Origin: Colwellia sp. 39_35_sub15_T18
Lineage (GTDB): Bacteria; Pseudomonadota; Gammaproteobacteria; Enterobacterales; Alteromonadaceae
Assembly (NCBI GenBank): GCA_002162675.1
Contig: MAAE01000032.1
Span: 62,001 to 126,000 of the forward strand
Direction: 5' to 3'
Length of the DNA stretch: 64,000 nt
Shown: piece after piece, positions 61,262 through 64,000 of the stretch
Layout of the letters: each line of letters starts with the position of its first letter
Numbering within the stretch: position 1 is the stretch's first letter
The notes under the pieces: generated by a model
Database searches by the model: none
What the model was told of the DNA's origin: nothing
What the model saw: only the letters and a program-made list of their open reading frames with translations
Program-made: the position numbers and the translations under genes

Positions 61262-61870
61262 TTAACACTGTTGATACTGCTCGATTATTTGTTTCCTTTT
61301 GTAACACGTTAAACTGTGATCATTCACCATGCCACAAGCCTGCATGTGCGCATAGCAAATAGTAGAGCCAACAAATTTAAAACCACGTTTTTTAAGGTCC
61401 TTACTCCACGCATCTGACTCAGTGCTAGTGGCCTGATAATCCTTTAAATCGCTAACTTCATTGACTATGGTTTTATGATTGACAAAGGCCCACATATAAT
61501 CGCTAAAAGAACCAAACTCTCGCTGTATATCAATAAACAATTTTGCATTATTAATCGTGGCGTTTATTTTACCTCGGTTACGAATAATATTGCTGTTTAG
61601 CATAAGCTCTTCTACCTTAGCTTGATCGAATGCTGCAACAGCATGAACATCAAAGTTGGCAAAAGCATCATGATAACCTTGTCTACGCTTTAATATAGTG
61701 TACCAACTCAAACCCGCTTGAGCAGACTCAAGCGTTAAAAACTCAAAAAGTTTTTGATCATCATAAACAGGCACTCCCCATTCTTTATCGTGGTATTGCA
61801 CATAATCGGGCTTACTTGTGTCTAACCAAGGGCATCGACAGACATCATTTACATTCTCATTTTTGGGCAT
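61262..61870 (-). CDS. tag: DNA-3-methyladenine glycosylase I
   Basis: Removes 3-methyladenine from DNA. The ATG read from 61868-61870 is chosen (MPKNEN) because AAGGAG lies five bases upstream, and the longer track start at 61900 has none. The result is 202 residues (E. coli 187). Zinc-binding ends are visible (CRCPW near the N-terminus; CYAHMQACGMVNDH), along with LTLESAQAGLSWYTILKRR and NRGKINATINNA. It stands alone between yccA and the tRNA-Ser. Confidence 0.95.
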   Translation of the reverse strand: MPKNENVNDVCRCPWLDTSKPDYVQYHDKEWGVPVYDDQKLFEFLTLESAQAGLSWYTILKRRQGYHDAFANFDVHAVAAFDQAKVEELMLNSNIIRNRGKINATINNAKLFIDIQREFGSFSDYMWAFVNHKTIVNEVSDLKDYQATSTESDAWSKDLKKRGFKFVGSTICYAHMQACGMVNDHSLTCYKRKQIIEQYQQC

Positions 61871-62029
61871 TTTTGCTCCTTTTGCCTGAATTGAATACAA
61901 AGTGGTTATTTTTTTAGCAAACGATTTGTTATTTGCTAATTAAGGCTTTACAAGTATGGAGGGACACTTTAATATTCGCCCCGTCTTCAAGCAAGCGTTT
62001 ATATTATTATTTACTTTGCTAAGATAATT

Positions 62030-62120
62030 GGTGAGATGGCTGAGTGGTCGAAAGCACCGGTCTTGAAAACCGGCAAGGGTTTGTAGCCCTTCTAGAGTTC
62101 AAATCTCTATCTCACCGCCA
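62030..62120 (+). tRNA. serT: tRNA-Ser (anticodon UGA)
   Basis: 91-nt cloverleaf with acceptor GGTGAGA/TCTCACC, anticodon loop CTTGAAA (anticodon TGA) on a CCGGT/ACCGG stem, the long class II variable arm (GGGTTTGTAGCCC) expected for serine, T-arm TAGAGTTCAAATCTCTA and encoded CCA. A TAAGAT five bases before the gene could be its -10. Confidence 0.96.
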
Positions 62121-62129
62121 CATTAAGAA

Positions 62130-62160
62130 AATCCGCTAATCGAAAGATTAGCGGATTTTT
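62130..62160 (+). terminator. tRNA-Ser terminator
   Basis: AATCCGCTAATC and GATTAGCGGATT form a perfect 12-bp stem with a GAAA loop and end in TTT. It begins nine bases after the tRNA CCA. Confidence 0.93.
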
Positions 62161-62187
62161 GCTTTTCAGCTTTTGGTGAATAGTAAA

Positions 62188-62240
62188 GGTTTGTAGCACA
62201 ACACCTTTACTATAGAGTTCAAATCTCTATCTCACAGCCA
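62188..62240 (+). pseudogene. tRNA-Ser 3'-half remnant 1
   Basis: The T-arm ATAGAGTTCAAATCTCTA, acceptor 3' strand TCTCAC and CCA are near-identical to the intact tRNA, exactly 120 bp downstream. No 5' half precedes it, and the variable arm is altered (AAAGG/CCTTT stem). It cannot fold into a tRNA. Confidence 0.85.
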
Positions 62241-62250
62241 CATTCTAAGA

Positions 62251-62280
62251 AACCGCTATATTAATTTATAGCGGTTTTTT
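62251..62280 (+). terminator. Terminator after tRNA remnant 1
   Basis: AACCGCTATA and TATAGCGGTT form a 10-bp stem with a TTAATT loop and are followed by eight T. It occupies the same relative position as the tRNA-Ser terminator but with a different stem. Confidence 0.88.
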
Positions 62281-62337
62281 TTCGTCTTAAGTTTATTAGT
62301 GTTCGGGTTTTTGCTTTCCAGCTTTTGGTGAATAGTA

Positions 62338-62390
62338 GAGGTTTGTAGCATATTACCCACGACATAGAGTTTAAATTTCTATCTCTAGCT
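62338..62390 (+). pseudogene. tRNA-Ser 3'-half remnant 2
   Basis: The T-arm-like ATAGAGTTTAAATTTCTATCTC and the preceding GTTTGTAGC match the tRNA with more changes than remnant 1, and the CCA end has decayed. It ends ten bases before the convergent aldolase gene. Confidence 0.75.
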
Positions 62391-62399
62391 TAAACGACT

Positions 62400-63191
62400 T
62401 TACTCAAACATTTCTGGTTGTTCAGCACTAATCACATTTAGCAGAGGTTGAAAGCTAAAATATCCAGCTAACTCACTACCTACTATGTCATAAGCTGACT
62501 GTGCTGCTGCTGGGCTGATAGTTTTTGGCGAGCCTGCTGATTGTGCTAGTAATTGTGTTTGGCAACTACGTTCCATAGTAATAAACCACCATGCGGCCGC
62601 TTCCACTGTTTTTGCTACGGTTAATAAGCCATGATTTTGTAATATTACTGCTTTATTATTACCAAGAGATTCCGCAATACGCTTTCCTTCGTTTGTGTCG
62701 AGCACGACACCGGTAAAATCGTCAAATAACACATGATCTTGATAAAATGCACAGGAGTCTTGGGTAATTGGGTCAAGGGTTTTTCCCAGTGTTGACCAAG
62801 TTTTTCCGTATAAAGAATGAGCATGAGCTGCTGCATTTACCTCTGGGTGAGCATTATGAATTTGGGAATGAATGGCAAAAGCGGCGCCGTTTAAAAGTCC
62901 TTCTCCCTGTACAACTTCTCCTTGATGATTGACTAATAACAGCTGCGAAAGTTTCATTTGTTTAAACGACACTCCCATAGGATTCACCCAAAAGTGATCC
63001 AACTGCTCAGGATCTCGAACGGTTATGTGTCCAGCTAATCCCTCATCAAAGCCAAATTTACCAAATAATCGAAAAGCTGCTACTAACATACGTTTTCGAT
63101 GTAATCGCACTTCTTCAGCGGTATTGCCTTCGTTAATGCTAGGCATATCACCTTTGGCATTCATCACCACGTTATTCATCGCATCGGTCAT
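62400..63191 (-). CDS. Class II aldolase/adducin family protein
   Basis: 263 residues of the araD/fucA fold. Zinc ligands are visible in AAAHAHSLYGK and in ILQNHGLLTV; GHITVRDPEQLDHFWVNP is the N-terminal glycine-rich motif. Members include sugar-phosphate aldolases, epimerases and decarboxylases, and others with no known reaction. Neighbours give no pathway, so the substrate is open. The gene converges on the tRNA remnants. Confidence 0.88.
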   Translation of the reverse strand: MTDAMNNVVMNAKGDMPSINEGNTAEEVRLHRKRMLVAAFRLFGKFGFDEGLAGHITVRDPEQLDHFWVNPMGVSFKQMKLSQLLLVNHQGEVVQGEGLLNGAAFAIHSQIHNAHPEVNAAAHAHSLYGKTWSTLGKTLDPITQDSCAFYQDHVLFDDFTGVVLDTNEGKRIAESLGNNKAVILQNHGLLTVAKTVEAAAWWFITMERSCQTQLLAQSAGSPKTISPAAAQSAYDIVGSELAGYFSFQPLLNVISAEQPEMFE

Positions 63192-63422: not shown

Positions 63423-64000
63423 ATGAGCATTCTCATAACGCCAACCAACTTTGCAGAACTCAGTCTTATTCCACCTTTATTAGCTCGATTAACCGAGCTG
63501 GCATATCAGCAGCCAACGCCCATTCAAGCGCAGGCTATTCCAAATGTGTTAGCAGGACATGATTTAATTGCAGGGGCAAATACTGGTTCGGGTAAAACCG
63601 CCACCTTCGCATTGCCTATGTTGCAGCATCTTTTTCTGCAACAAAATGCTAAAAAATCATCAGCTAGTAAAGGTAACTATGTTTCAGGGTTAATTTTGGT
63701 GCCTACTCGTGAATTAGCCAAGCAAGTTGCTGACAGTATTAAATCTTATGCCGTGCATTTTAATGGCGCGATTAAAACGGTTGCTGTTTTTGGTGGTGTA
63801 TCAGCGAACACTCAAATGCAAGCATTACGTGGCGGCACCGATATTTTGGTGGCAACGCCAGGTCGGTTACTTGATTTGATTGCAAATAATGCCATTAAAC
63901 TTGATAGGGTTAGTACTTTAGTGCTTGATGAAGCCGATCGGATGTTAAGTCTAGGCTTTACTGACGAGTTATCTGCGTTATTAGCGCTTATGCCTAATAA
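63423..64000 (+). CDS. DEAD-box ATP-dependent RNA helicase (3' truncated by window end)
   Basis: Not in the ORF track because it runs off the window. From ATG 63423 (MSILITPTNFAELSLIP) the frame stays open for 192 codons. Q motif (QPTPIQAQAIP), motif I ANTGSGKT (Ser instead of the commoner Thr), Ia PTRELAKQV, GG in FGGVS, Ib TPGRLLD and motif II LDEADRML are present in order, so the first RecA-like domain is nearly complete. Helicases of this RhlE/SrmB-like type act in ribosome assembly or RNA decay, and psychrophiles carry several. The specific paralogue cannot be named without the C-terminus. Confidence 0.93.
   Translation, partial: MSILITPTNFAELSLIPPLLARLTELAYQQPTPIQAQAIPNVLAGHDLIAGANTGSGKTATFALPMLQHLFLQQNAKKSSASKGNYVSGLILVPTRELAKQVADSIKSYAVHFNGAIKTVAVFGGVSANTQMQALRGGTDILVATPGRLLDLIANNAIKLDRVSTLVLDEADRMLSLGFTDELSALLALMPN

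Follow-up and report, generated by a model that had tools for sequence, protein, structure and literature searches.

Behind an intact tRNA-Ser gene, the 64,000-nt stretch of Colwellia sp. 39_35_sub15_T18 analysed here (the window) carries two partial copies of the 3' part of that gene. How did these copies arise, and do they have a function of their own? tRNA 3' ends are classic docking sites of mobile elements. A preliminary description, made from the letters alone, regarded the copies as decayed 3' halves, possibly left either by tandem tRNA duplication or by integrative elements that rebuilt the tRNA 3' end at each insertion. We consider the locus most likely to be an integration site of the CIME (cis-mobilizable element)/accretion type whose attachment module was amplified in tandem.

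The intact gene is a tRNA-Ser(UGA) with the anticodon TGA (62030..62120, plus strand; ARAGORN, and Rfam RF00005 with 61 bits). A consensus scan places a promoter-like site on the same strand at 61947..61976 (TTTACA, 17 or 18 nt, TAATAT/AATATT) and finds no further one between 61880 and 62420, including the interior of the array. Directly 3' of the tRNA a terminator-type hairpin (62128..62159, plus strand) is formed by an inverted repeat with perfect 14-nt arms, a 4-nt loop and a T run. Unit 1 (62187..62244, plus strand) comprises the tRNA 3' third with a variable arm of the unit type, the T arm, the CCA end and a CATT trailer; in the repeat search its full register begins at 62152. A second terminator-type hairpin, again an inverted repeat, lies 3' of it (62247..62280, plus strand). 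The consensus terminator scan reports this second hairpin and not the first, and a T run stands behind both; a terminator-type structure is present behind the first copy, as had been described. Unit 2 (62304..62385, plus strand) is worn and consists of a spacer from 62304 on and a variable-arm/T-arm part at 62340-62385.

A 68-nt direct repeat relates 62093-62160 to 62213-62280 with an offset of 120 bp, and an 82-nt repeat (83% identical) relates 62152-62233 to 62304-62385 with an offset of 152 bp. Unit 2 thus lies 272 bp in all (120 + 152) behind the intact gene. The likeness of units 1 and 2 is not a product of chance, because the profile E-values are 6.5e-18 and 1.5e-7, and two partial copies at 120 and 272 bp are real, as had been described. 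Their portrayal as decayed halves with T arm and acceptor end holds only in part. Both keep the T arm, but unit 2 has lost the ACCGCCA acceptor end and reads CTATCTCTAGCTTA. Unit 1 can hardly be called decayed, since T arm, 3' end and CCA are present and it fits a conserved repeat family. The second tRNA-Ser(UGA) locus of the same genome (L002, G000:C62:17823-18056) holds one unit; over 234 bp its identity to the window locus is 97%. On the left, the tag gene for 3-methyladenine DNA glycosylase (61262..61900, minus strand; PF03352, 5.7e-80) is a conserved neighbour that marks the orthologous locus; it adjoins tRNA-Ser in 24 of the 30 genus loci examined.

Arrays of one to five such units stand behind tRNA-Ser(UGA) in Colwellia and relatives. 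Each unit combines a terminator with the 3' third of the tRNA, made up of a variable arm longer by about 9 nt, the T arm and the CCA end. With a strict pattern the unit was found in 34 of 399 genomes and, of 52 genera sampled from the family, in 8; within the genus 20 of 39 genomes have it. The reversed control pattern gave no match in the same genome search. The records concerned belong to Colwellia, Cognaticolwellia, Pseudocolwellia and Thalassomonas, plus MAGs. Units are nearby at 12 of the 22 readable orthologous tag/tRNA-Ser loci of the genus, and many genomes are without units. A viral source was considered and rejected, as viral contigs contain no exact match to the unit pattern. The period is 120.7 +/- 5.3 bp (s.d.; median 120 bp, n = 127 units). 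A terminator-like hairpin follows 70 of 78 tRNAs, 76 of 81 internal units and 34 of 61 last units, compared with 57 of 741 shuffled stretches. In L043, L046, L057 and L059, one and the same insert (GGTTTTTATCACATCCATGTGAAAACCACATAACTTCATCC..., about 55 bp) splits several units behind the CTATCTC of their acceptor part; it might be a REP-like or miniature element.

The unit consensus GGGTTTGTAGCGCAANACCTTCNNGTAGAGTTCAAATCTCTATCTCACCGCCACATT has about 9 nt more in the variable arm than the tRNA (AGGGTTTGTAGCCCTTCTAGAGTTC...). This insertion is present in many species and absent from the tRNA; consequently, new units stem from existing ones rather than from repeated copying of the tRNA. Unit cores are 88% alike within one array and 80% between arrays, and linkers 75% and 63%, respectively (shuffled linkers: 49%). 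Of 97 scorable cases, 95 show the same trailer state (CCACATT or CCATATT) in a unit and in the tRNA upstream of it, a number to be read in the light of the rarer state being present in few loci only. This agreement suggests exchange between tRNA and units. The trailer is the sole indicator of such exchange, because the variable-loop state shows no consistent agreement between the two.

Evidence for integration comes from relatives. In L116 a 12.6-kb element lies between the intact tRNA and a displaced tRNA-type 3' fragment, which is followed by a unit. The element encodes a tyrosine integrase (PF00589, 3.3e-8) and a MobA/VirD2-like relaxase (PF03432, 1.5e-15), and similar elements occur in L121 and L122. 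Relatives, though not the window, hence harbour elements that carry a site-specific recombinase and sit at the tRNA 3' end, as in a CIME-type system. In L116, L125 and L123, element or gap ends are marked by 22-46 nt direct repeats of the tRNA 3' end. Array segments that are not directly behind a tRNA start after recurring sequences. Such end sequences, some of them borne by elements with tyrosine integrase and relaxase, abut tRNA or unit 3' ends exactly. The right end alpha (about 118 bp) terminates with GTAGGTCTTGAAAACCGG-CAAGGGTTTGTAG, beta reads TTTTATTGAATAAAACCAGTGCCCATACTCGTCCCATTCTGCC-CGCCACATT, and gamma, then TTCTATCTCACCGCCACATT, adjoins a Phage_integrase gene in G035. The left-end sequence delta (CAAAGGGCTGCACAATGTGCAGCCCTTT) comes after CCACATT. 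It includes a terminator hairpin, and a delta-like hairpin behind tRNA-Ser in L191 looks like a plain terminator.

Alpha occurs at seven places, joined to unit-type 3' halves in four and to tRNA-type halves in three; delta stands behind units at seven places and behind tRNAs at at least five. With four right ends and as many as seven left-end-type junctions located on units, the units appear to have served as attachment sites. Alpha has anticodon-stem sequence even where it is joined to a unit without such a stem, so the switch would have to lie at or after GGGTTTGTAG. In L118 a hipBA pair without integrase has delta on one side and alpha on the other, and beyond each of these ends lie units; this is an integrase-less segment bounded by attachment-type ends, as is typical of CIMEs. 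Iterated searching with a single integrase query gave two copies only; a Pfam family search (PF00589) was therefore carried out in nine genomes, and most arrays there have no integrase nearby. The comparison of the remnants with attachment-type ends, proposed in the preliminary description, gave a positive answer in relatives, where element ends meet tRNA or unit 3' halves. Two other recurrent sequences were seen: one (TATAGATAAGCCTCTGTTTTACAGGGGCTTTTTTATG...) directly behind arrays of different genera in L045, L047 and L056, a possible further element end, and one (...CAAATTAGTCCAGCAGGATTGCCTGAGACAATG...) behind tRNA-Ser or a unit in L031, L054, L206 and L218, possibly a further inserted element.

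None of the alpha, beta, gamma and delta ends has a match within the window, so that insertion at this locus is inferred from relatives. No match to Phage_integrase (PF00589) was found in the window either, as had been stated; the closest is 92 kb off on the same contig. What follows the array is a class II aldolase/adducin-type gene (62400..63191, minus strand; PF00596, 4.8e-48) and a DEAD-box helicase gene (plus strand, 63423..64000 and on to about 64730 past the window end), separated from unit 2 by a junction at 62386..62399. Among 39 genus genomes, only the close relative G022 has a near-identical copy of the aldolase (93%); elsewhere in them no full-length match exceeds 54% identity, and a 90-residue piece in G352 reaches 64%. 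In G022 the aldolase and helicase genes are 86-88% identical in DNA. This homology ends at 62399, 9 bp beyond unit 2, and the tRNA array of G022 is on another contig. The beta motif of the own genome (G000:C2:127584-127644) corresponds to about 65584 in window coordinates, 3.2 kb downstream and outside the window. From the homology break, the rarity of the aldolase and the position of beta, we conclude that the block is accessory DNA which this lineage acquired behind the array, be it by integration or by another rearrangement.

With some reserve we favour the following scheme, in which a tRNA 3' attachment module was amplified in tandem and the tRNA together with its copies became an integration hot spot. 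A module of about 120 bp, i.e. the tRNA-Ser(UGA) 3' third plus terminator, would gain and lose copies by recombination between copies, as the repeat patterns suggest. Tyrosine-integrase elements and integrase-less cassettes would join at the shared segment GGGTTTGTAG to CCGCCACATT, irrespective of whether it belongs to the tRNA or to a unit, and would thereby accumulate behind the tRNA; the junctions are seen directly, and the recombination is deduced from them. In this genome the result would be a well-kept unit 1, a worn unit 2 and the aldolase-helicase block, which comparison marks as accessory DNA joined there. Much of this is also explained by tandem duplication without any integrase, because some arrays (L012, L014, L021) hold identical units. 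According to this alternative, slippage or illegitimate recombination gave rise to a single duplication of a tRNA-Ser 3' fragment together with its terminator, which unequal crossing-over and gene conversion then spread; mobile elements would use the copies incidentally and would have had no part in their origin. Identical neighbouring units, the alternating two-unit pattern in L022, the likeness of units within arrays, the trailer agreement, which fits exchange, and the many arrays without a nearby integrase are all in line with it. However, several unrelated element ends abutting units are left unexplained, and we hold pure duplication to be possible but rather unlikely. It departs from the favoured scheme mainly in the origin of the first unit.

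It is improbable that every unit was left directly by a single past insertion, as an attL or attR relic. Real scars do exist in relatives, namely the direct repeats in L116, L125 and L123, and the idea that integrative elements left their marks here stands insofar as elements insert at this locus in relatives with ends that coincide with tRNA or unit 3' halves. But the clearest scar at the tRNA, that of L116, carries a tRNA-type variable arm, whereas the units share one common insertion and a constant period. Independent insertions would not yield near-identical 120-bp neighbours; such regular arrays require tandem amplification rather than one insertion per unit. Least credible of all is the decay of complete tRNA-Ser genes after tandem duplication of whole genes. 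Complete tandem pairs or triplets are indeed found in L010, L022, L025, L062 and L063, but these occur separately and are mostly spaced otherwise (about 195 bp), and every unit lacks the same 5' part and has the same insertion. No trace of a 5' half in front of the 3' half came up in repeat and profile searches, in which homology starts at the variable arm. The reading of the copies as leftovers of tandem tRNA duplication is not supported for the unit family in view of the shared variable-arm insertion, the period of about 120 bp, the terminators and the recurrence in many species. Arrays acting as spare landing pads, which either divert elements from the tRNA or let integrase-less cassettes stack in an integron-like manner with the help of an integrase in trans, are a speculative and doubtful proposal.

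In the favoured scheme of an amplified attachment module, the units probably do not act as RNAs in their own right. In E. coli, tyrT is followed by short tandem repeats (rtT; Rfam RtT), each of which includes the 3' end of the tRNA. A small-RNA role like the one proposed for these repeats, with units processed from read-through transcripts, would be consistent with the persistence of terminator-like hairpins. The named variable-arm and T-arm helices have 92.5% paired cells and two double changes, slightly above shuffles. RNAalifold, in contrast, finds no covariation, with a consensus fold of -1.2 kcal/mol and no double changes. Moreover, the array has no internal promoter-like site and a terminator ahead of it, the T stem is broken in several copies, units are missing from many genomes, and cmscan lists no match to Rfam RtT up to an E-value of 5. 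A functional RNA was therefore rejected on the little covariation and the missing promoter-like site and is very improbable; conservation of the unit sequence presumably reflects an origin at the DNA level. A mini-tRNA, i.e. a unit read as a tRNA that lacks the D and anticodon arms and has GGTGA as the acceptor 5' strand, was rejected as well: it fits this species only, and the GGTGA ahead of unit 1 is not common to other species. The arrays resemble rtT in being short tandem repeats behind a tRNA gene, each with the 3' end of that tRNA. They differ in the tRNA concerned, the longer tRNA part, the missing Rfam match, the terminator behind each copy, the element ends at copies and the lack of any sign of an RNA product.

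Closer counterparts are the CIMEs and the tandem accretion of ICEs and IMEs at a tRNA 3' end (review PMC5704250, and Pavlovic et al. 2004 as cited there). Site-specific insertion at the tRNA 3' end, integrase-less elements bounded by attachment sites and stacking at one site are common to both. Here, however, the attachment module is itself repeated in tandem every 120 bp, has a variable arm specific to the units and brings terminators of its own; element ends join array copies as well as the tRNA. Partial tRNA genes left by integrative elements are described for archaea and other prokaryotes as single-event fragments (PMC9897764). They are likewise integration-caused 3' fragments near an intact gene, whereas the present units form a conserved, amplified repeat family. 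Our literature search, with most subscription journals outside its scope, found no prior description of these arrays or of this Colwellia locus. Multiplied docking sites across genera, with several kinds of element ends, provide a natural setting for studying the choice between a tRNA gene and spare sites, and for how integrase-less cassettes accumulate.

The cargo at this locus is exchangeable. One and the same right flank, upstream of the MNLEQALLD gene, has beta in front of it in G002, G019, G034, G016 and G010; in G020 alpha and a unit take this place, and in G035 a unit array does, so that changing cargo lies between constant flanks, as in a CIME-type system. The beta motif (about 55 bp) is very conserved; 19 of 39 genus genomes have it, in most cases at a position downstream of a tRNA-Ser array. 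It is a putative right-boundary motif, and may be an element end or something else. In one frame it could encode the short peptide ILLNKTSAHTRPIL. Between tRNA or array and beta we found two kinds of Gabija systems (L181, L101) and a SIR2-nSTAND (SIR2-STAND) protein (L179). A NERD-domain gene repeatedly lies left of these systems (L181:312-4926; L101:484-4956; L179:6806-11554). With its NERD gene and changing defence systems, the interval from tRNA-Ser to beta is a predicted defence hot spot. As in defence hot spots known from fixed chromosomal sites (e.g. PMC10250203, PMC10121019), the chromosomal position is fixed and the defence cargo exchangeable; unlike those, the Colwellia locus has tRNA-Ser units on the left and a beta motif or alpha end on the right. 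In cold-water marine bacteria the locus carries exchangeable defence systems, and its boundaries are readable from sequence. In L109 (9734-16227; putative C. marinimaniae) a gal gene cluster has a unit array on one side and an alpha end on the other, and because of this placement it may be cassette cargo.
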